Positions 32,257 to 43,532 of a stretch of 64,000 nt of DNA are shown here, in pieces. Origin of the DNA: a delta proteobacterium MLS_D (GTDB lineage Bacteria; Desulfobacterota; Syntrophia; Syntrophales; UBA2210); the NCBI GenBank assembly GCA_002030015.1, contig LQBH01000035.1, positions 1 through 64,000 on the forward strand. The letters run 5' to 3'. Position 1 is the first letter of the stretch, and the number at the start of each line of letters is the position of its first letter. The notes under the pieces are model-generated. The model did no database searches and was not told the origin of the DNA. It worked only from the letters and a program-made list of their open reading frames with translations. The translations under genes were made by a program, and so were the position numbers.

Positions 32257-33000
32257 TCAGGATGATGTTGCTCCGTGACGGGACCGCGGCAGGAGATAGG
32301 GCCGCATAGTCGTTTCAAGAAGAACCCGCTGGCTTTCGAAGCTGTCGACGCCTTCGTCGGAACATGGTATCATCGGACCAAAACGGAGGGTCACCCGCGC
32401 AAAGGGTTTCGGCAGCATGAACCGGTCCCAGCTGTGAAAATACCAGGCCTTGTCGGCTTCAGTGTAGAAAGGAACGATCACGGCGCCCGTGGCGCGGGCC
32501 AGGCTGATCACGCCTGCTTTCACGACACCTGCGGGTCCCCGGGGGCCGTCGACGATGTGAGCCGCAAGCCCCGACTGTCTGAACCGGCTGACCATTTCCT
32601 TCAGCGCCTGCCCTCCGCCGCGCGACGAGGAGCCGCGTACGGTGTGCCAGCCCTGCTTCTCGGCGATGCGGGCAATGATGTCTCCGTCCTGACTCCTGCT
32701 GATCATCAGGGATGGCTTGAACGATTCATAGGACTTGAAGGGCCGAATCGCGGCGAAGAACTGCTGATGCCAGGTACAGAGGAGCACCGAGCCACCGCTT
32801 GTGAGATAGTCCATCCAGCATTCTTCGTTTTCGATGGTAATGCGGAATGTCCGGGAGTAGAGACGAAGAACTACAAGAAGCAGGATGCTTAATCTTTTAG
32901 AAATGTTGAATTTCCAATCTTTTAACACGAATACGTCTTTCCGGAACGCTGATTCTTCGCGGGGCCGAGCCGATATTACGACGAAACACCGGGCTTCCAC
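32257..33000 (-). CDS. DUF374 lysophospholipid acyltransferase-like protein
   Basis: A protein of up to 247 residues. The central WHQQFFAAI (near 77-85) replaces the HX4D box of classical acyltransferases in the usual DUF374 manner, and the HIVDGPRGPAGVVKAG block (near 149-164) is diagnostic for the family. DUF374 proteins resemble lipid A lauroyltransferases and probably add an acyl chain to a cell-envelope lipid. The start is uncertain: the first in-frame codon is a GTG without a good ribosome site, and the conserved part begins near the LKDWKFNISKR segment some 25 residues later. Confidence 0.82.
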   Translation of the reverse strand: MEARCFVVISARPREESAFRKDVFVLKDWKFNISKRLSILLLVVLRLYSRTFRITIENEECWMDYLTSGGSVLLCTWHQQFFAAIRPFKSYESFKPSLMISRSQDGDIIARIAEKQGWHTVRGSSSRGGGQALKEMVSRFRQSGLAAHIVDGPRGPAGVVKAGVISLARATGAVIVPFYTEADKAWYFHSWDRFMLPKPFARVTLRFGPMIPCSDEGVDSFESQRVLLETTMRPYLLPRSRHGATSS

Positions 33001-33102
33001 TCGGAACTATATGAAGAACGACGGCAAGAGTCAACGCAAATACGATGCAATTTCCACTTGACACACACCGCGGCTTCGCTCAAGTTTTACTTCACGCCGC
33101 GT

Positions 33103-33108
33103 TATAAT
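33103..33108 (+). promoter_or_regulatory. Possible -10 box for the XRE/acyl-CoA dehydrogenase operon
   Basis: A perfect TATAAT lies 19 bases before the XRE start codon. No good -35 box is spaced correctly; a TTGACA at 33058-33063 is too far away. Confidence 0.35.
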
Positions 33109-33127
33109 AATTTTCAGGGGACGTGCC

Positions 33128-33493
33128 ATGAACGCCTATGAACGAATCGGCCGGAAACTCCAAAAAGCCAGGGAAGAAGCCGGTATGAGCCAGGAAGAAC
33201 TGGCCGGGCGTCTCGGCTGTTCCCAGGCGTCTCTTTCCTATTACGAACTGGGGAAACGGCGCATTTATTTCGCGGAGCTGGAAAAAATCTGCGCCATTCT
33301 GAAACGCCCTCTTACGTATTTCCTCGAAAACCAGGACCCGGGTGAAAACCGGGGCAATAATCTCGCCGCCCTCCTGCAGGAACCGCACATGGAAGACATC
33401 TTGCTCCAGGCGGGCGGCCTGACGCCCTCGCAGCGAAAATCCGTGCTGGAATATATCGAGTGGCGGAAATTCAGGGACGGAGGGAAAAAATGA
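33128..33493 (+). CDS. XRE-family transcriptional regulator
   Basis: A 121-residue DNA-binding protein. The helix-turn-helix spans about 7-60, with MSQEELAGRLGCSQASLSYYE holding helices 2 and 3. The C-terminal 60 residues are short and helical and may bring about dimerisation. The stop codon overlaps the start of the acyl-CoA dehydrogenase gene (ATGA), so the two are made together. A local regulator of that dehydrogenase, possibly sensing an acyl-CoA, is a reasonable inference; no effector domain is recognisable. Confidence 0.88.
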   Translation: MNAYERIGRKLQKAREEAGMSQEELAGRLGCSQASLSYYELGKRRIYFAELEKICAILKRPLTYFLENQDPGENRGNNLAALLQEPHMEDILLQAGGLTPSQRKSVLEYIEWRKFRDGGKK

Positions 33494-34632
33494 TCTCGTT
33501 CACGCTCTCCGAACACCAGCGGGAACTTCAGCAGAAATTCCGCGAAACAGGTGAATTACGCCTGCGCCCCGTTGCGGCGGAAATCGACCGAGCCGCTCCC
33601 GGTCCTCTCGACCGGCGCTTTCTTGACATCCTCGGAAGTGAAGGTCTCATTTCACTCCTGGTGCCCGAAGAATACGGCGGACAGCACGTTGACGCCATCA
33701 CGCTTGCCGTCATTATTGAAGAACTTGGATGGGCATCCACGGATTTCGCGGCGGTATTTCAGTCGACGTTTCACGCCGTAAAAACCATCCTCGTTGGAGG
33801 ATCGCCGGAGCAGAAAAAGCGGTTCCTCAAGGAATTGCTTGCGCCTTCGGGTCGCGTGGCGGCTTTCTGTCCCACTGAAGAACAGGGCGGTTCGGACAGT
33901 TCTTCTTTCAGAACCACCGCCCGCCTCAGCGGTGACCGGTATATTCTGAACGGCGAGAAAACTCCCGTTATCAACGCCGGCAGCGCCGCTTTTTATATTG
34001 TGTGGGCGAACATGGACACGGACCGGGGGCGTTCCGGCATCAACGCTTTCGTTGTCCCGGGCGACACGCCGGGAGTGACCTGCGGCCCCTACTACGACAA
34101 ATCGGGACACCGGGGCGTTCCAATCGCGACGGTGACCTTTGACAACGTCGAAGTGCCCAAGGAAAACCTGATCGGCGCCCCCGGAAGCGGGTATCTTCTC
34201 CTGATGCAGACCGTCGATTCGGGCCGCGCCTTTGTCGGCGCTTCCTGCGTGGGACTCGCCCGGGCGGCCCTCGAAATAGCCCTCGAGCACGCGAAAAAAC
34301 GTACAATCAAGAGCCGACCGATTATAAGCAACCAGGGCGTGAGTTTCTCCCTGGCCGATCTGTTGACGCACCTGGAAGCGGCGCGGCTGCTCGTCTGGAA
34401 GGCCTGCGAACTGATGAACGCCGGGCTTGATCACTCGGCCGCCTCGGCAATGGCGAAGCTTTTCGCCTCCGAACTGGCCGTACATGCAACATCCGAAGGG
34501 ATGCTGATCCTGGGACAGAAAAGCATGCACCGATCGGCGCTGATGGAAAAATTCCAGCGTGACGCCCAGCTCACACGAATCGTCGAGGGTACCAGCCACA
34601 TTCAAAAAGCGGTCATCGCGAGTCAGCTGTAA
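33490..34632 (+). CDS. Acyl-CoA dehydrogenase
   Basis: A 380-residue FAD-dependent dehydrogenase that introduces the alpha,beta double bond into an acyl-CoA. It has the three-part fold: helical N-terminal (about 1-115), beta middle with CPTEEQGGSD in place of the usual LTEPxxGSD FAD block, and helical C-terminal. The catalytic glutamate is present in TRIVEGTSHIQ near residue 369. The start at 33490 follows GGAGGG; an upstream in-frame ATG lies inside the regulator gene. The acyl chain preference is unknown. No electron-transfer flavoprotein genes are in the window. Confidence 0.92.
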   Translation: MISFTLSEHQRELQQKFRETGELRLRPVAAEIDRAAPGPLDRRFLDILGSEGLISLLVPEEYGGQHVDAITLAVIIEELGWASTDFAAVFQSTFHAVKTILVGGSPEQKKRFLKELLAPSGRVAAFCPTEEQGGSDSSSFRTTARLSGDRYILNGEKTPVINAGSAAFYIVWANMDTDRGRSGINAFVVPGDTPGVTCGPYYDKSGHRGVPIATVTFDNVEVPKENLIGAPGSGYLLLMQTVDSGRAFVGASCVGLARAALEIALEHAKKRTIKSRPIISNQGVSFSLADLLTHLEAARLLVWKACELMNAGLDHSAASAMAKLFASELAVHATSEGMLILGQKSMHRSALMEKFQRDAQLTRIVEGTSHIQKAVIASQL

Positions 34633-35018
34633 CCAGGCTCTGGCCGGTCTTCGAATACTCACTGTTGATTCGGCAGGGAATATGCCCGCCACGCACCGGT
34701 AATCCGTGGCGATTTCTTGGCACCCGGGAATATAACAAAATGGCATTTTTCTTGACAGAGATACAACCCTGTGTAATACGTGAAGTAATCTTTCAACTTA
34801 TCCGACATGCTTCGCATTCAGGTCGACGGTGAAGCACTGAAAATCTTGCGGAGAATTGAGGCCGCCCGACGACCTCACTGCGAGAATGAGAAGCACTGTA
34901 ACATGGTCATCAACAGTTTCCCTGCTGTTGTCAAACCGAGCACAGATTGTCCCAGGTTCAATCGCCGGTGCGTACATCGGCTCCGAGCAGACACCAACTT
35001 ACTAAGGAGGGGAACAAC
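34633..35018 (+). promoter_or_regulatory. Intergenic region upstream of a Liv-type binding protein
   Basis: No gene is visible in these 386 bases. A perfect TTGACA lies at 34752-34757, but the sequence 17 bases downstream (AATACG) is a poor -10. A long untranslated leader with a strong AGGAGG before the start is likely. Confidence 0.35.
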
Positions 35019-36221
35019 ATGAATTCGAAGAAGATGTTATGTTTAGTGGCAGGTCTTGTCATGATGGGATTCTATCTCATGGCAGATACGGGTTTTGCCG
35101 GGGAACCCGGTTTCGACGACAATGAAATCCGTATTGCGCAATTCAGTCCTCAATCGGGTCCCGCCGCGGCATGGGGGGCCGTGGCCCGTGGCGCCAAATT
35201 TCTTTTTGACTATGTGAACGAGCAGGGCGGCATACACGGAAGAAAGATAAAATATTTTATTCGGGATGCCCAGTACAATCCTTCTCAGGCAATGGCGGCA
35301 GTAAGAGAACTGGTCGACCGGCAGGGAATATTTGCGTTGACAGGCGGCGTCTCTGGAGCCGGCTGTATCGCCGTCAAAGACTTTGTCGATCAACACAAGG
35401 TATTGTGGGTTGTTGGGGGAACCGCCGCCCTGAACCCCGTGGACTATCCGCCGAGCAGGTACCGGTTTCACGCCTATCCGCTGTTCCAGGATGAGGCTAG
35501 CGTAGTAACAAAATACTTAGTGGAGGAACGGGGATACAAAAAAATCGGGTTTCTCTATCAGAATGATCAGTTCGGTAAAGCCGGTCTTGCGGGGTGCAAA
35601 CAGCGACTTGCCACTTACGGCATTGAACTCGTCGCAGAACTGCCCGCGGAACCGACCACCACGGACATATCGTCTCAAATACTTCGATTCAAGAACAACG
35701 GCGCCGAAACGGTCCTCATGTGGGTAAATCCATCCCTGGCGGTCATGGCTCTCAAAACTTCCTCCAGTGTGGGGTATAAGCCACAGTGGGTCGGGTTTGA
35801 CGGTCTCTCGGATTATCCGATCATGTATCATATTACCGATGGACTGTTTGAGGGTGTCATAACAACAGCCTTTATTCCGCCACCCGATTCGAATGATCCC
35901 CTGGTTGTGAAATATCGGGAAGCAGCAAAACGGCTGGCGCCCGAAGAACGGTGGTCCTATTTGTTCATGGGAGGAATCTGGTTCGCGGAACCTCTCGTGG
36001 AAGCCCTTCAACGGGTCGGACGGGATCTCAGCACGGAAGCAGTCATCGCGGAACTCGAAAAATTTGAAAACTGGAAAAGCCTGGGACCTCCCATAACGTG
36101 GAACGAGAATCGCCGCCAGGGGACGGATGCCGTCCAGATAGTACAATGCGGTCCCAAGGGTTCCACCAAGCTGCTGCAGGATTGGATGCCGAACGAACTT
36201 GCCACGTGGAAAAACGAGTAA
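35019..36221 (+). CDS. Liv-type (family 6) periplasmic binding protein, orphan
   Basis: A 400-residue secreted ligand-binding protein. The signal peptide (about 1-26) ends with GFAGEP. The Peripla_BP_6 fold follows with EIRIAQFSPQSGPAAAWG and the GGIHGRKIKYFIRDAQYNPSQA segment, typical of branched-chain amino-acid/amide/carboxylate receptors. The start has an AGGAGG site. No permease or ATPase gene of the Liv class lies near, so it must work with subunits elsewhere. Its position among acyl-CoA dehydrogenases suggests an acid or amide that feeds CoA-ester metabolism; the ligand is unknown. Confidence 0.9.
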   Translation: MNSKKMLCLVAGLVMMGFYLMADTGFAGEPGFDDNEIRIAQFSPQSGPAAAWGAVARGAKFLFDYVNEQGGIHGRKIKYFIRDAQYNPSQAMAAVRELVDRQGIFALTGGVSGAGCIAVKDFVDQHKVLWVVGGTAALNPVDYPPSRYRFHAYPLFQDEASVVTKYLVEERGYKKIGFLYQNDQFGKAGLAGCKQRLATYGIELVAELPAEPTTTDISSQILRFKNNGAETVLMWVNPSLAVMALKTSSSVGYKPQWVGFDGLSDYPIMYHITDGLFEGVITTAFIPPPDSNDPLVVKYREAAKRLAPEERWSYLFMGGIWFAEPLVEALQRVGRDLSTEAVIAELEKFENWKSLGPPITWNENRRQGTDAVQIVQCGPKGSTKLLQDWMPNELATWKNE

Positions 36222-36268
36222 GAAATATTCAATTTTTGTAATCAGGTGGCTTAATCACACGACCACTA

Positions 36269-36299
36269 CCCGGAGAACCGGTTTGACCGGTTCTCCGGG
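36269..36299 (+). terminator. Strong hairpin after the Liv-type binding protein
   Basis: CCCGGAGAACCGG and CCGGTTCTCCGGG form a perfect 13-bp stem with a 5-base loop, 47 bases past the stop at 36221. The U-run is weak, so it may need Rho or act as an mRNA 3' stabiliser. Confidence 0.65.
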
Positions 36300-36485
36300 A
36301 TAAAAGATATTGCAACCCGCAACGGCGCGCACTGTCTCTCGGGATGTGTGCGTCCGTTGCCGCGACAGTAGCGGGACCAGATACTGGGAGAAGTTCTGTT
36401 CTTCGGGATGTCCGGCACATCGCAAGAGTAATGACCGACCACTGTGCTTGCATTGTTTAAGTCCGCGAGGAAAGAAGCTGTCACG

Positions 36486-37211
36486 ATGTCGACACCCGAT
36501 CGTAATAATCCGTACTCATTTGATGCATTTCTCGCCTGAAGAAACAAGGTTGTTTTTTACCGGGACGATTCTTTCTTTCAGCATGTGGTACGGCATTTTA
36601 CGGTGAGAAATGGAAAACGATTACTCGTGAAGCCGAAATCACCTCCGAAAAGGTGTCCTTCCGGTGGAGAAGTATCGCGGATGAGACATCCCGGCCCGAA
36701 AATTAGCCCTCCATCATGCAATACGACGGGATGAATCACCGGATTGACCGCGTTGTCCACCCTCTCGACATGGAAATCACGGAACGCGAAATTTTCGCGG
36801 AGGGACTTTTCTCGGCGCATACTTCAGCATGGAAACAGCTTGTAAAAATGTACCTGGTTTTTCAAAACGGCGAGGCCTGTATCGCCTGTCCCCTTACCTG
36901 CACGGAGGGAATGGTGGAACTGCTGAGAAAATATGCAGATACGCCGGAACTCCGGCGCATACTCACACACTGTACTGAGGGAATTGACGGCAGTTTCGGC
37001 ATCGGTGCCCAGTATCTTTCTGGGATGCAGGGAGGCTCGGACGTGCAGCAAAACCTGCTTTAAGCGACGTTACACGGGGACCAGTGGTTTATTATTCGGC
37101 ACAAAGTTCTTCTGCTCGGCAACACACGCCGATTATGCGGTGATCACGGCGAAACCGTCCGGAGCTGGAAAAGTTGCTCTCTCCATAGTGCCCTCATCGT
37201 TGCCTGGCTAA
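36486..37211 (+). pseudogene. Frameshifted and truncated AidB-like acyl-CoA dehydrogenase
   Basis: Three pieces of one acyl-CoA dehydrogenase of the long, AidB-like type follow in the right order. From 36486 the frame gives MSTPDRNNPYSFDAFLA, then an in-frame TGA at 36537-36539, then NKVVFYRDDSFFQHVVRHFT. Near 36700 the match moves to another frame (MNHRIDRVVHPLDMEI, ACPLTCTEGMVELLRKYAD, FGIGAQYLSGMQGGSD), which ends at 37063. From about 37080 it returns to the first frame (LFGTKFFCSATHADYAVITAKP, VALSIVPSSLPG) and stops at 37211. The C-terminal half is absent. Intact relatives have about 550-600 residues. This is a dead copy beside two intact acyl-CoA dehydrogenases. Confidence 0.82.
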
Positions 37212-37244
37212 AATGTTTCGCTACAACAAATTGGTGTTTCGCTC

Positions 37245-37273
37245 TTGACATGGATATAACTATATGTTGTATT
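37245..37273 (+). promoter_or_regulatory. Sigma70-type promoter for the second acyl-CoA dehydrogenase
   Basis: TTGACA and TGTATT are separated by exactly 17 bases in an AT-rich stretch, about 105 bases before the start at 37380. Confidence 0.5.
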
Positions 37274-37379
37274 CGATAGTGATTTTCATGCCGGCACGAC
37301 CCGCCCGTCATGGACCACGGCCCCGCACGGGCAGTGGCATTATTAACAATAATTTCATGCAGGAAAGGGAGACAACGCC

Positions 37380-38633
37380 ATGTCATTCGAATTTCTTTTA
37401 ACGAAAGAGCAGCTTGAATTCAGGGAGGAAATCAGGGATTTCGTCAGGTGGGTGCCACGCAGCATGATCCTGGAGATGGACGCGGATGACATAAAGTTTC
37501 CCAAAGAGTTTCTCCGGGAAGCGGGACGTCGTAACCTTCTCGGATGCCGCATTCCCAAAGAATGGGGCGGACGCGGCATGGATTGGGTGACATCCTGCAT
37601 GGTATCCGAGGAAATCGGCACACTGGGATATGAGTTCGCCTGTGTTTTCGGCGTCGGCGCCGATCTTGTCTGCGACGCCATCGCGCTTCACGGCACGGAC
37701 GAGCAGAAAGAAAAATATGTCAAGCCGCTTCTGCGGGGCGACCTTTTCGCGGCTGAGGGCCTGACCGAACCGAGGGGCGGCTCCGACTTTTTCGGCGCCA
37801 CGACGACGGCCGTTGACAAGGGTGACCATTTTGTCCTCAACGGCCAGAAACGGTTCATCGTGGGCGGCGAGGGCGCCGATTATTTCCTCGTTTACGCCCG
37901 CACCGACCCTCGTCCGGAAGCAAAACCCCAGGAAGCAATCACCGCCTTCATCGTCGACCGGGGACCCGGCGTGGAAACGAAATATCTGTACGGTCTCATG
38001 GGGTGCCGGGGCGGCGGAACCGCCCGGCTCGTGTTCAAAGACGCCGTCGTACCCAAAGAGAATGTGCTCGGAACGGTCAACGGGGCTTACGCCGTTTTCA
38101 ACACGATGATGATTCCCGAACGGCTCGGTACCGCCGCCATGACCATCGGTCCGGCCCGCGTCGCCCTGGACGTGGCCACTCACTACACGACACGGCGGAA
38201 AGCCTTCGGCAGGACCATCAACCGTTTCCAGGGCGTGAACTTCCAGATCGCCGAAGCGGCCATGCTTCTTGACGCTTCGCGATCCATGGCATACGCCACC
38301 TCGCGGGCCGTGGACACACCGAGCGTCAGCCGGGACACAGTGCGGCGGATGATCTCGGAAACGAAAAAGTTCGTCACCGAATCGTGTCAGAAAATTGTGC
38401 ATAATGCCATGCAGGTCGTGGGCGGCATCGGGTACACCACCATTCTGCCCATCGAGCGTATTCACCGTGACATCAGGCTCTCGTCGATATGGACCGGAAC
38501 CAACGAAATCATGTCGGTCATTATCGCTCACGAGTGGTACCGGGAGTTGTACAGGCGAAAGGATCACGCCACGCGCGATTACGCGGCGGATGCAGCCGAA
38601 TCCGACGCCGACGAAGAAATTATTTACGAATAG
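37380..38633 (+). CDS. Acyl-CoA dehydrogenase with altered catalytic-base position
   Basis: A 417-residue acyl-CoA dehydrogenase. The FAD block reads LTEPRGGSDFFGA (about 127-139). At the place where most members have the catalytic glutamate (YEGT) the sequence is IWTGTNEIM, with Thr instead of Glu. The alternative base position used by isovaleryl-CoA and long-chain enzymes seems filled: PERLGTAAMTIGPARVALD has a Glu just before the helix G motif. So it could still be active with the other base. The tail (from about 395) is acidic and unusual. It is followed 45 bases later by another binding protein, probably in one transcript. Confidence 0.9.
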   Translation: MSFEFLLTKEQLEFREEIRDFVRWVPRSMILEMDADDIKFPKEFLREAGRRNLLGCRIPKEWGGRGMDWVTSCMVSEEIGTLGYEFACVFGVGADLVCDAIALHGTDEQKEKYVKPLLRGDLFAAEGLTEPRGGSDFFGATTTAVDKGDHFVLNGQKRFIVGGEGADYFLVYARTDPRPEAKPQEAITAFIVDRGPGVETKYLYGLMGCRGGGTARLVFKDAVVPKENVLGTVNGAYAVFNTMMIPERLGTAAMTIGPARVALDVATHYTTRRKAFGRTINRFQGVNFQIAEAAMLLDASRSMAYATSRAVDTPSVSRDTVRRMISETKKFVTESCQKIVHNAMQVVGGIGYTTILPIERIHRDIRLSSIWTGTNEIMSVIIAHEWYRELYRRKDHATRDYAADAAESDADEEIIYE

Positions 38634-38678
38634 GGGGGAAAGAACATCACAACAAACATGTAAAGGAGGGACTGAAAA

Positions 38679-40037
38679 ATGGCTAAGATCGTGCGTTGTC
38701 TGCTGTTGGCCGTCGTCCTGATGTTAATGATGCCGCTCACGGGGACGGCAACGGCACAAGTTCCGAAGGGCGAACCCATCGTTTTCGGTTACGTGGGATA
38801 CACACTTTCTCCGGGAACCAGGCCCTGCATGGATATTCAGCGCGTCGCCGTTGAAGAAATCAACCAGGCGGGAGGTATTATGGGGCGGCCCGTCAAGTAC
38901 GTTACCGCCGACAACAAGGGGCAGACGACCCTCACTATCGAAGGCGCCCGGCACCTGCTGCGATCTGAAGGGGTCATATTCCTGTCCGTAGAGGGCCGGT
39001 CTGAAATCGCACTCGCGGCTCAGGAAAACTCGGCGGTCATGTTCAAGGACTATCCCCATCTTCTCATTCTCAACGGTACCGGCGGGCTGGAACTGACCGA
39101 CCGCGTGGTGGATGATTATGAACGGTACCGCTTCACGTTTCGCGACTGGGAACCGCTTGAACCGTCACATTACGCCCAGCAGCGTTACATCTGGGAAAAG
39201 GTATGGCCCCGCATGGTACCGGACGGAAAACGCGTGGCCATTCTCTGGGAAGACCTGAACTGGAATATTCCCTGGCGGACAAACGGCATTCCTTCCATGA
39301 ATCTTCCCTCGTGGCCGGATTTCATGGAGGAGCTGGGCCTTGAAGTTGTTTTCAATCAAAACGTGGCTCCCCGGGGAACAATGTATCTTCCTGTTCTGCA
39401 ACAAATAGCGCGAGCAAAAGCGGACCACATTTTCTTCGTCAGTTCATGGTTCACCGACACGGAATCATTCGTAAAACAGTGGGCCGATTCTGCGGCGCGT
39501 AATACCCTGGTTCATCTGTATGCCGGCGTTTCCCAGACGGACATGTTCTGGAACATGACGGGCGGCAGGGCGCTCGGCGTGGTGAGTAACTATATGAGCA
39601 TTGATGTGCCGATCACGGAAAAAACAGTTCCCTTTTACGAACTGGCAAAGAAACACGGCATACCCACGCAGCTCAATGTTCATCTTGCCTATGCCGATAT
39701 TTACTTCTTTAAGGCAGTTATCGAAAAAGCCTGTGGAATCGATGACATAGACAAGCTGATCGAAGCAATGTACACGACTGAAACGACCTATTCCCTGGGC
39801 AAGATGGTCTACGAAACACAGCGTATCAAGCCGTTCTTTCACTGCAGGAAGCGGGTCGATCCCACCGATCCTTCACGGAAAAGTTATCCCGGCGTGTTTT
39901 ACATGCCCTGGATTCAGTACCAGCATGACGGCACGGTTCAGTACCTTCACGGTTCGACGGCGGAACATGAAGATTTCTGGACCCGGTACGGCATGCCTGA
40001 AGACCTGATCATGCCCGAAGAGTTACGAAAACGATAA
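38679..40037 (+). CDS. Liv-type (family 6) periplasmic binding protein, orphan
   Basis: A 452-residue secreted binding protein. The signal peptide (about 1-27) ends with GTATAQ. The fold starts with EPIVFGYVGYTLSPG and has the GGIMGRPVKYVTADNKGQ segment. It differs clearly from the proteins at 35019 and 62596, so they are not recent copies. It follows the acyl-CoA dehydrogenase gene by 45 bases with an AGGAGG site, which suggests that its ligand is the acid, or a precursor, that the dehydrogenase oxidises as a CoA ester. Permease and ATPase subunits are not in the window. Confidence 0.9.
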   Translation: MAKIVRCLLLAVVLMLMMPLTGTATAQVPKGEPIVFGYVGYTLSPGTRPCMDIQRVAVEEINQAGGIMGRPVKYVTADNKGQTTLTIEGARHLLRSEGVIFLSVEGRSEIALAAQENSAVMFKDYPHLLILNGTGGLELTDRVVDDYERYRFTFRDWEPLEPSHYAQQRYIWEKVWPRMVPDGKRVAILWEDLNWNIPWRTNGIPSMNLPSWPDFMEELGLEVVFNQNVAPRGTMYLPVLQQIARAKADHIFFVSSWFTDTESFVKQWADSAARNTLVHLYAGVSQTDMFWNMTGGRALGVVSNYMSIDVPITEKTVPFYELAKKHGIPTQLNVHLAYADIYFFKAVIEKACGIDDIDKLIEAMYTTETTYSLGKMVYETQRIKPFFHCRKRVDPTDPSRKSYPGVFYMPWIQYQHDGTVQYLHGSTAEHEDFWTRYGMPEDLIMPEELRKR

Positions 40038-40069
40038 AACGTGACTTCTCGGTGCGTTACCAAACCACG

Positions 40070-40101
40070 CGATCCCGCTCCGGCAAACCGGAGCGGGATC
40101 G
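40070..40101. terminator. Bidirectional hairpin terminator
   Basis: CGATCCCGCTCCGG and its exact complement form a 14-bp stem with a 4-base loop, between the convergent binding-protein and trehalose genes. Confidence 0.75.
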
Positions 40102-40129: not shown

Positions 40130-41347
40130 TTATTGTTTGAGTTCTCCCAGCAGATCCAGATAATCAAGCAGAAGACGTGTGATGAGAAATTTCTGCCGCA
40201 CCGATTCTTTCGCCCGCCTGCCGATTTCTTCCGCCATGCGGGGATCGTGAAGCAGGGCGATGACCCGTTCGGCGAAGGCGTTGTCGTCACGCGGGTCCAC
40301 CAGGAATCCGTTTTCGCCGTCTTGTATCTGCAGCGGAATACCCCCGACGTTCGAGGCAACGACGGGTCGCTGTTTCCACATGGCTTCCGTTATAACCAGC
40401 CCGAAGCCTTCTTTGAGTGATTTCTGAATAATGACCGATGAAATACGCTGAAGAACATTAATAAAAATGAAATTGGAAGCCACGGGGTCGCTGACGAGTA
40501 TCACGTCCCCTTTTTTGATAAGTCCCTCGGCCTCCTTTTCTGTTTTTTCATACATCCGCAGTCCTTCAGGATCGTCGGTGGCAATATTCCCGCAGAGCAC
40601 CAGCCGGCAGTCCACACGCTCCTTGATTTTTTTGAAAACCCGAATAACGCCGCCCGGATCCTTCCACTTATCGAACCGGGAAATCTGGGTTATCAGCGGC
40701 TTGTCCGTCCTGATATTATATTTTTTGAGATACTTCGACATTACGGTATCGGTCAGTTCGGTGTTTTTCGCCGTCAGGGGATCGATCGCGGGGTAAATCA
40801 CCCGCTGTTCCACCGGAAGCGACGGCTTGAGGTATGACTCATTTGAAACGATCATGAGATCGTATCGTCTGACCATCGTGCTGAGAAAATCCCACAATTC
40901 GGAATTCGGATTTGACAGATCGACGTGACACCGCCAGATCCAGGGTTGACGTTTTCTGTAGTATTTGATCAGGGCCAGCGGCTGGGGATCATGAATGACG
41001 ACATAATCGTGGTGCAGGTGGGTGTACTCGGAAAATCTCTCATTGGTCTGGAGATAGAGTTTTTTCTTCCGTGAAGTTAAATTGACCCCGTCGCCCTGGA
41101 GCGCGTTGTGAAACTTCTTTGTTATCTCGAAAAAATCGGGGTATCCGTGCAGGGTTCTCCACCCGGTATCGATACCCACATTGTTCATCAGGGGGACGAG
41201 ACTGTTGAGAATTTCGGCGACGCCTCCGCCCTGATAGGTGGAATTGATATGAAGAAGATGCTTTCCGTACAGCTTCCGTACTTTTTTCCGTATGGCGGCG
41301 ATGACGTCCTCACCGACGATGTCCTGATAGTGTTCTATGTCAATCAT
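40130..41347 (-). CDS. Trehalose synthase-like GT4 glycosyltransferase (TreT type)
   Basis: A 405-residue GT-B fold glycosyltransferase. TreT-type enzymes join glucose and a nucleoside-diphosphate glucose into trehalose. Recognisable parts are HINSTYQGGGVAEILNSLVPLM (about 33-54), a block typical of TreT, ISRFDKWKDPGGVIRVFKKI in the donor half (about 225-244), and SLKEGFGLVITEAMWKQRPVVAS with the E-X7-E nucleotide-sugar pair (about 315-337). The start at 41347 overlaps the OtsA-OtsB stop by 8 bases, so it is translated with it. A second route to the same disaccharide is implied; another sugar acceptor cannot be excluded. Confidence 0.85.
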   Translation of the reverse strand: MIDIEHYQDIVGEDVIAAIRKKVRKLYGKHLLHINSTYQGGGVAEILNSLVPLMNNVGIDTGWRTLHGYPDFFEITKKFHNALQGDGVNLTSRKKKLYLQTNERFSEYTHLHHDYVVIHDPQPLALIKYYRKRQPWIWRCHVDLSNPNSELWDFLSTMVRRYDLMIVSNESYLKPSLPVEQRVIYPAIDPLTAKNTELTDTVMSKYLKKYNIRTDKPLITQISRFDKWKDPGGVIRVFKKIKERVDCRLVLCGNIATDDPEGLRMYEKTEKEAEGLIKKGDVILVSDPVASNFIFINVLQRISSVIIQKSLKEGFGLVITEAMWKQRPVVASNVGGIPLQIQDGENGFLVDPRDDNAFAERVIALLHDPRMAEEIGRRAKESVRQKFLITRLLLDYLDLLGELKQ

Positions 41348-43532
41348 TACCACCCTTTCCGCCGACCAGGTCTTTCAGCAGCCTGACGACTTCTTCCTGT
41401 GATTTCAGGTTGTACCGGGCCTCCGTCTCCCCGAAGCCGACCTTGAGCGTGTACCCCCGGTCGTCAACGACCGCGAACATGTCTTCGTCGGTGCGATCGT
41501 CTCCAACGGCGAGAATAAAGTCCCAGTCCCGTTTCGACATCCAGTAATTCGAAACGCGTCCTTTGTTTATACTGCTGTCTTTTATCTCCACGACCATGTC
41601 ACCTTCCAGTATCTGCAGGTTATAATTGGCCGTCAGGTATATCAGGTCGTCAATCAACTCTCTCACCCGTATCGCACCCAGCTCGGAACCGGTTTTCCGG
41701 TAATGCCAGGCAATAGAATATTCCTTTTCCTCGATGAACGAACCGGGCGTTCGGTCCACGTAACGTTCGATAATGGGATAGATTTCCTCTTTCCATTCGA
41801 CGCTGAGCGGCTCCAGCATCGTCCATTCCCGCTCCCTGATCCAGGCACCATGTTCCGCCACGAGTCCCACCGGAAGGTCTCCGAACCAGTCCTCCAGAAT
41901 ATTACGGTCACGTCCGCTGATTATCACGACCTCGTTGCCGGGGACAGCCGCCAGCCGCCGTATCAATCGCAGGAGATCGTCCCCCGGTTCAGCCTGTTCC
42001 GGTTTATGCTTGAAGGGAACAAGCGTACCGTCATAATCAAGAAACAGGAGACGAGTCGTCGCTCTCCGATAGTCTGACAACAGTTCCCGCCGCGAGGTTT
42101 CGGCAAGCCCCTTGTTCACCATTTCACGATGTCGCTCATTCATGTCTTCCAAACGCTCGATAAATTCATGCCCCCATCTGTCGACGGTATATCGCCGCAG
42201 ACGTCCTTTCATTATGCGGTTTCGCCGCAGTATTTCATGTTCGTTCATCGTAAGGGCCTGTACCAGGGCGGCGGTTACTTCCTCGCGGTTGTTGGGATTG
42301 ACGATAATCGCTTCTCCCAGCTCCCTCGAAGCCCCGGTCATCTCGCTTAAAATCAGCACCCCCCCTTCCTGTTTCGAAGCGATGTATTCTTTCGCCACCA
42401 GGTTCATACCGTCTCTCACGGGCGTGACAAGACAGACATCGGCGAGGTTGTACAGGGCGTTCAGCGTGGGAAAAGGAAGCGCGCGGTACAGATACCAGAT
42501 GGGATTCCAGCCTATGGTACCGTATTCACCGTTGATCATGCCGATCATCTCGTCGACGTGATCCTTCAGCCGCTGGTAATGCTCCACCCTGGTCCGCGAG
42601 GGGACCGCCACCATGATAAGCACAACCCGCTCCCGGAACTCGGGATGCGTCTTCAGCAGTTCTCGGTACGCCTCGAGCCGTTGCGGAATGCCCTTCGTAT
42701 AGTCAAGTCGGTCGACCGACAGTATGACCACGTAGTCGCGGACGCGTTTCCTGATATTTTTAATTTCTTTCTGCACGTTCTTATCATGGAAGGCCCCGGC
42801 GAATCGATCGTAGTCGATACCCATGGGAAATGTGTCGACGCGTACCGGCCTGTCGGCCTCGGTAAACTGCCCCAGGTTGTTCTCGTAACCGAGAATCCGG
42901 TGAAGGCTGCTCAGAAAATGCCGGGCGTAATCATAGGTGTGAAACCCGATCAGGTCTGCTCCGGCGAGTCCATCGAGCAGTTCACGCCTCTGCGGCAACG
43001 TCCGGAACAATTCATAGGAGGGAAAGGGAATATGGTGAAAATATCCGATAGACGCTTCAGGTTTCGCCTGCCTGATGATTCGGGGGACGAGCATCAACTG
43101 GTAGTCGTGAATCCATATCAAGTCGCCTTCACGCATGATAGAAAGGACTTTTTCGGCGAACCGTTCATTGATGGTCCGGTACGCTTTCCAGTAGTGCCTG
43201 TCATAGATTACGAACTGAGGGAAATAATGGAACAGGGGCCAGATTGTTTTATTACTGAATCCTTCGTAATACAGGCCGATATCCCGCTGTGAAAGAAAAA
43301 CAGGGTGACAGTTCAGATCGCCTTCAAGATGTTGTGTGATGACGGCCCTGTCTTCCGAGCTCAGCCTGTTGCTCGCGATACCCGGCCATCCTGTCCAGAC
43401 ACCTTCTCGTTTTGTGGAGAGTGAACTCAAGCCGGTGGCAACTCCCCCGGCGCTCTGCCTGTAAAGAAAGTTTCCCTTTCTCCTCTCTATCGTTACCGGC
43501 AATCTGTTTGATACGATCAGAATCCTTTTCAT
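41340..43532 (-). CDS. Trehalose-6-phosphate synthase/phosphatase fusion (OtsA-OtsB)
   Basis: A 730-residue bifunctional enzyme. Residues 1-475 are a GT20 trehalose-6-phosphate synthase with HDYQLMLVP (142-150), HHIPFPS (166-172), SVDRLDYTKG (272-281) and PVRDGMNLVAKE (371-382). Residues 490-730 are a HAD phosphatase with the nucleophile loop FLDYDGTLVPF (Asp499/Asp501) and VGDDRTDEDMF near the end. It makes trehalose from UDP-glucose and glucose-6-phosphate in one chain. Fusions of this order are known in eukaryotes and some bacteria. The first gene of a two-gene minus-strand operon with the TreT-like gene. The product protects against osmotic or desiccation stress. Confidence 0.93.
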   Translation of the reverse strand: MKRILIVSNRLPVTIERRKGNFLYRQSAGGVATGLSSLSTKREGVWTGWPGIASNRLSSEDRAVITQHLEGDLNCHPVFLSQRDIGLYYEGFSNKTIWPLFHYFPQFVIYDRHYWKAYRTINERFAEKVLSIMREGDLIWIHDYQLMLVPRIIRQAKPEASIGYFHHIPFPSYELFRTLPQRRELLDGLAGADLIGFHTYDYARHFLSSLHRILGYENNLGQFTEADRPVRVDTFPMGIDYDRFAGAFHDKNVQKEIKNIRKRVRDYVVILSVDRLDYTKGIPQRLEAYRELLKTHPEFRERVVLIMVAVPSRTRVEHYQRLKDHVDEMIGMINGEYGTIGWNPIWYLYRALPFPTLNALYNLADVCLVTPVRDGMNLVAKEYIASKQEGGVLILSEMTGASRELGEAIIVNPNNREEVTAALVQALTMNEHEILRRNRIMKGRLRRYTVDRWGHEFIERLEDMNERHREMVNKGLAETSRRELLSDYRRATTRLLFLDYDGTLVPFKHKPEQAEPGDDLLRLIRRLAAVPGNEVVIISGRDRNILEDWFGDLPVGLVAEHGAWIREREWTMLEPLSVEWKEEIYPIIERYVDRTPGSFIEEKEYSIAWHYRKTGSELGAIRVRELIDDLIYLTANYNLQILEGDMVVEIKDSSINKGRVSNYWMSKRDWDFILAVGDDRTDEDMFAVVDDRGYTLKVGFGETEARYNLKSQEEVVRLLKDLVGGKGGND

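Follow-up and report, generated by a model that had tools for sequence, protein, structure and literature searches.

The 64,000-nt window analysed here, which begins at position 1 of contig LQBH01000035.1 of the delta proteobacterium MLS_D (Syntrophales), encodes at 36486–37208 on the forward strand residues 1–241 of a 536-residue AidB-like (divergent) acyl-CoA dehydrogenase, in three colinear pieces that match one subject. Judged from its letters, this relic appears to be an ordinary pseudogene remnant, the dead first half of an enzyme-like gene, and we put the probability of a pseudogene decaying in place at about 0.93. The sequence data show what the pieces are, their lesions, the lost constraint, a gene order that relatives conserve and an intact homologue on another contig of this genome. 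A conserved gene module has here lost one member by ordinary decay.

Table 1. Coordinates of the relic pieces and the neighbouring genes in the window.
Feature	Position	Strand	Description	tblastn score
ACAD1	33460-34632	+	intact 390-aa acyl-CoA dehydrogenase gene	
SBP1	34947-36221	+	intact periplasmic binding protein gene (Peripla_BP_6), likely start ATG 35020; upstream of the relic, as in G100	
Relic piece 1	36486-36602	+	residues 1-39, TGA in frame at 36537	52 bits
Relic piece 2	36596-37087	+	residues 38-201, other frame, TAG 36704 and TAA 37061 in frame	187 bits
Relic piece 3	37092-37208	+	residues 203-241, first frame again	67 bits
Break point	37209-37211	+	TAA in place of residue 242; C-terminal 295 residues absent	
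ACAD2 upstream region	37211-37379	+	common to same-genus G003; promoter-like TTGACA at 37245	
ACAD2	37380-38633	+	intact acyl-CoA dehydrogenase gene, 417 aa; in relatives its homologues come after intact AidB-like genes	
SBP2	38679-40037	+	second intact periplasmic binding protein gene	

The tblastn query was the intact 536-aa homologue from the same genome (contig 46, L002:1279-2889), and the stretch was also translated. Together the three pieces reach an E value of 6.6e-75; the best of 200 dinucleotide shuffles scored 23.5 bits versus 187 bits for the best relic piece. An earlier note on this DNA had described pieces of one AidB-like protein in alternating frames and had proposed a translated search for colinear matches on one subject; the search bears this out, and the coordinates given there were right to the base. 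The single in-frame TGA that it reported is present, but the damage is greater, amounting to three internal stops, two frame changes and a further TAA at the break. The C-terminal half is gone, as claimed: residues 242–536 have no significant tblastn match in 34633–37379 (best E 1.1), and the assembly holds no other fragment of them except the intact contig-46 copy and remoter acyl-CoA dehydrogenases. The dehydrogenase and the two binding proteins that the note had placed in the flanks are encoded by intact genes. A search of the relic stretch for RNA families gave no match at gathering thresholds.

The family assignment was made with the intact homologue (P0001), which exceeds the Pfam cut-offs for Acyl-CoA_dh_M (41.8 bits; cut-off 33.3) and Acyl-CoA_dh_1 (65.9 bits; cut-off 22.4). 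Its best matches among solved structures are 6sd8 (E 3e-38), ACDH-11 (4y9j, 2.6e-33) and AidB (3djl, 1.1e-25), of which we take the first to be Bd2924. These domains and nearest structures place it in the divergent AidB/ACDH-11/Bd2924 group of the acyl-CoA dehydrogenase superfamily. We call the family AidB-like and not AidB because the scores for AidB proper fall below the curated cut-offs: P0001 scores 108.2 bits against 545 for NCBIfam PRK11561, and P0001 and the relic piece score 20.4 and 16.2 bits, respectively, against 22.9 for Pfam AidB_N. For the related divergent ACAD Bd2924, the authors report having detected no dehydrogenase activity (PMC6851490), and for this reason "dehydrogenase" is used here as a statement of fold; the earlier name of AidB-like acyl-CoA dehydrogenase stands in its first half and, in its second, by fold only. 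The window copy, which ends at residue 241, lacks both the C-terminal helical domain and the active-site glutamate.

Gene order in relatives connects the relic with its neighbours. In 7 of 29 other genomes of the order (G039, G026, G020, G084, G091, G042 and G081), an ACAD2 homologue is immediately preceded on its own strand by an intact AidB-like gene, as seen in the next ∼490 nt at loci L188–L217 except the genome's own contig-46 locus L190. Each locus was counted once (L124 is G039:C18, L117 is G081:C4 and L119 is G084:C346); three further genomes with matches to the relic piece, G065, G024 and G072, have no locus in this count, and in G024, seen otherwise, the genes are not adjacent. SBP1 lies between the AidB-like gene and the ACAD2 homologue in G030 and G149, and another gene separates the two in G089. 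Among 80 named ACAD2 loci, at least 6 have a codirectional AidB-like gene upstream, which in 3 cases lies within about 120 nt; this is a lower bound because many of those loci are short. In G100 the order is TetR, SBP1, AidB-like gene; the gap from SBP1 to the AidB-like gene is 264 nt both there and in the window, and from SBP1 as far as 37156 the similar DNA of the two stays colinear, with an offset of no more than 1 nt. Because relatives share this order, and one of them the spacing, we take the relic to be what is left, at its original site, of the AidB-like gene in a long-established neighbourhood.

The locus would thus once have held a TetR/SBP/AidB-like/ACAD2-type module in the order SBP1, AidB-like gene, ACAD2. 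In a presumed order of lesions, selection on the AidB-like gene would have been lost, giving rise to the stops, to many amino-acid changes and to two small indels that shift the frame but leave the overall length unchanged; a deletion would then have taken the last 295 codons up to the ACAD2 upstream region, leaving the neighbours intact. That the missing half went by deletion and not by another rearrangement is likewise presumed, and redundancy with the contig-46 copy may have permitted the loss.

The contig-46 gene is flanked by a divergent TetR-type gene, an arrangement also seen in L117, G081, G084, G091 and G089; in G100 the TetR gene precedes SBP1. The window has no match to the contig-46 TetR. 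On the opposite strand, the end of an ORF (L005 8131-9144) coincides with the 3′ end of this intact AidB-like gene; the beginning of the ORF presumably resembles that of a REP-associated tyrosine transposase. In tree 1, built without G019p and C4bin21p, the contig-46 protein groups with G030 (100/99), and in tree 2, built without SKW214, with G030 and G149 (98/93), with the relic outside in both. The relic sits on a long branch, with no resolved place or outermost; this branch is the reason that the trees do not place it, and its orthology therefore rests on gene order. One possible but doubtful history is a foreign replacement, in which a TetR–AidB-like pair was gained (contig 46, sister to G030/G149 of another family) and the copy beside ACAD2, now redundant, decayed. 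The other genes of its operon would have been retained, perhaps with the TetR of contig 46 still regulating them in trans.

Far less probable is an origin of the relic by recent duplication of the contig-46 gene, followed by degeneration. The longest open piece of the relic has matches in 33 of 155 genomes of the order, and only its own genome has two, which speaks for a duplication; however, identity of the relic to the contig-46 protein, at 58.2%, lies within the range for the other 16 proteins (51.7–64.0%), and the groupings above join the contig-46 protein to other genomes without it. A young copy of the contig-46 gene was rejected on this identity and on the trees.

Constraint on the relic, read here as a pseudogene decaying in place, has been lost. 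Across 14 intact genes, 278 sites at the first or second position of a codon never vary; the relic is changed at 38 of them, versus 0–12 for the intact genes in leave-one-out counts (SKW214, G019p and C4bin21p left out). It keeps 72 of 88 invariant residues; in the corresponding leave-one-out test, which covered 15 intact rows but neither of the partial ones (G019p, C4bin21p), SKW214 keeps 87 and each of the other 14 keeps all 88. The relic has a pN/pS of 0.30–0.36 versus 0.18–0.29. It thus combines several disabling lesions with constraint that is relaxed relative to intact homologues, as a pseudogene does.

It is scarcely credible that the organism carries an intact gene into which sequencing or assembly introduced the breaks. 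The genome is a 70-contig draft whose contamination is estimated at 3%, and single frame changes are common errors, but here three stops inside the gene, a frame that changes twice and the loss of 295 codons come together with the changes at invariant positions, and the adjoining genes are free of such damage. Errors would not raise pN/pS in the relic stretch alone. Because conserved-site changes accompany the stops and frame changes, assembly error is unlikely. Hardly more tenable is a working small protein in a shortened 115-aa or 92-aa frame inside the relic: such open frames are present (36716-37063 and 36933-37211), but they derive from stop-broken relic frames and have lost invariant positions, and no separate short gene is seen in relatives, where each of the 33 other matches to the 115-aa stretch falls within an open frame of 480–633 aa.

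The changes at invariant positions correspond to about 0.15 changes per site (Jukes–Cantor), which resembles half of the silent divergence measured in nine neighbouring genes against the same-genus genome G003 (0.298 in total, 0.149 for each lineage) and suggests a loss of constraint about as old as that species split; the figure is rough, as the gene may have gathered some changes before it was inactivated, silent sites are under some selection of their own and the genes include a recombinant tract. The earlier note had spoken of a dehydrogenase recently lost. The loss holds at this locus, but the genome retains the intact homologue on contig 46, and "recent" applies only relative to species splits. 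Its reading is therefore partly supported: right in substance, too strong in "recently" and incomplete on the homologue elsewhere.

Comparison within the genus agrees with the earlier suggestion that the cluster is still turning over: its content differs among species. Similarity of G003 to the window ends at 34658, just after ACAD1, and returns at 37211, the end of the relic, continuing through the ACAD2 upstream region. About 200 unrelated nt replace SBP1 and the relic in G003; because they resemble neither, a deletion there is at most conjectural. G004 is without the XRE gene, ACAD1, SBP1, the relic and SBP2. An AidB-like gene or a relic of one is absent from all four other same-genus genomes (80–96% complete), and no relic traces occur in the gaps of G003 and G004 or, in G002, in the 1500 nt that precede ACAD2. 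With neither gene nor relic in any of the four, a gain in this lineage with later decay is as compatible with the data as ancestral presence. More broadly, the content of 33050–40070, between an acyltransferase-like gene (32257-33000) and a glycosyltransferase-like gene (40130-41353), differs strongly within the genus. Over 32800–34400, covering the XRE-type regulator and most of ACAD1, DNA identity to G003 is 97–100% versus mostly 75–95% around it, and silent divergence, 0.298 overall, falls to 0.105 in ACAD1 and 0.012 in the XRE gene; on sequence grounds this looks like a recent between-species recombination tract.

Promoter-like elements of the form ACAAnAAATGG ... TTGACA ... ATAyAAC lie upstream of SBP1 (34731–34773) and of ACAD2 (37224–37272), the TTGACA at 37245 resembling that at 34752. 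With up to 1 mismatch, the core pattern occurs genome-wide at these two places only (control, 0); a sigma-70 consensus scan listed neither TTGACA. The palindrome GTTACCACTGGTAAC / GTAACCACTGGTTAC lies between divergent TetR and AidB-like genes at L005 6376-6523, L117 4123-4303 and L224 5997-6476 and is a likely TetR operator, as predicted from its sequence; the window elements are related to it but much weaker. A scan of 34600–37400 found no terminators, and an inverted repeat at 36269–36299, 3′ of SBP1, showed up when the sequence was matched to itself.

The relic matters for annotation: gene finders would report small hypotheticals at 36310-36606, 36716-37063 or 36933-37211, although these are mostly pieces of one apparently dead gene. 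The binding-protein/AidB-like/ACAD2 module of Syntrophales-type bacteria has here lost one member, of which the genome still carries a homologue at another place, and the relic is useful mainly for tracing change in its gene cluster.

The relic is like bacterial pseudogenes in general in its stops, frame changes, truncation and raised pN/pS, with no notable difference. Bd2924, ACDH-11 and AidB are the nearest structures of the intact homologue; the relic instead stops inside the middle beta-sheet domain, by the Bd2924 limits given in PMC6851490. Another close comparison is with the intact AidB-like genes of the same order (contig 46, L117 and L119), which encode the same protein over residues 1–241 but are full length and conserved, whereas the window copy is broken and cut at residue 241. 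Neighbours are partly common to the window and the intact loci, with ACAD2 in L117 and L119 and SBP1 in G100, and TetR lies near the intact AidB-like genes at contig 46, L117 and G100.
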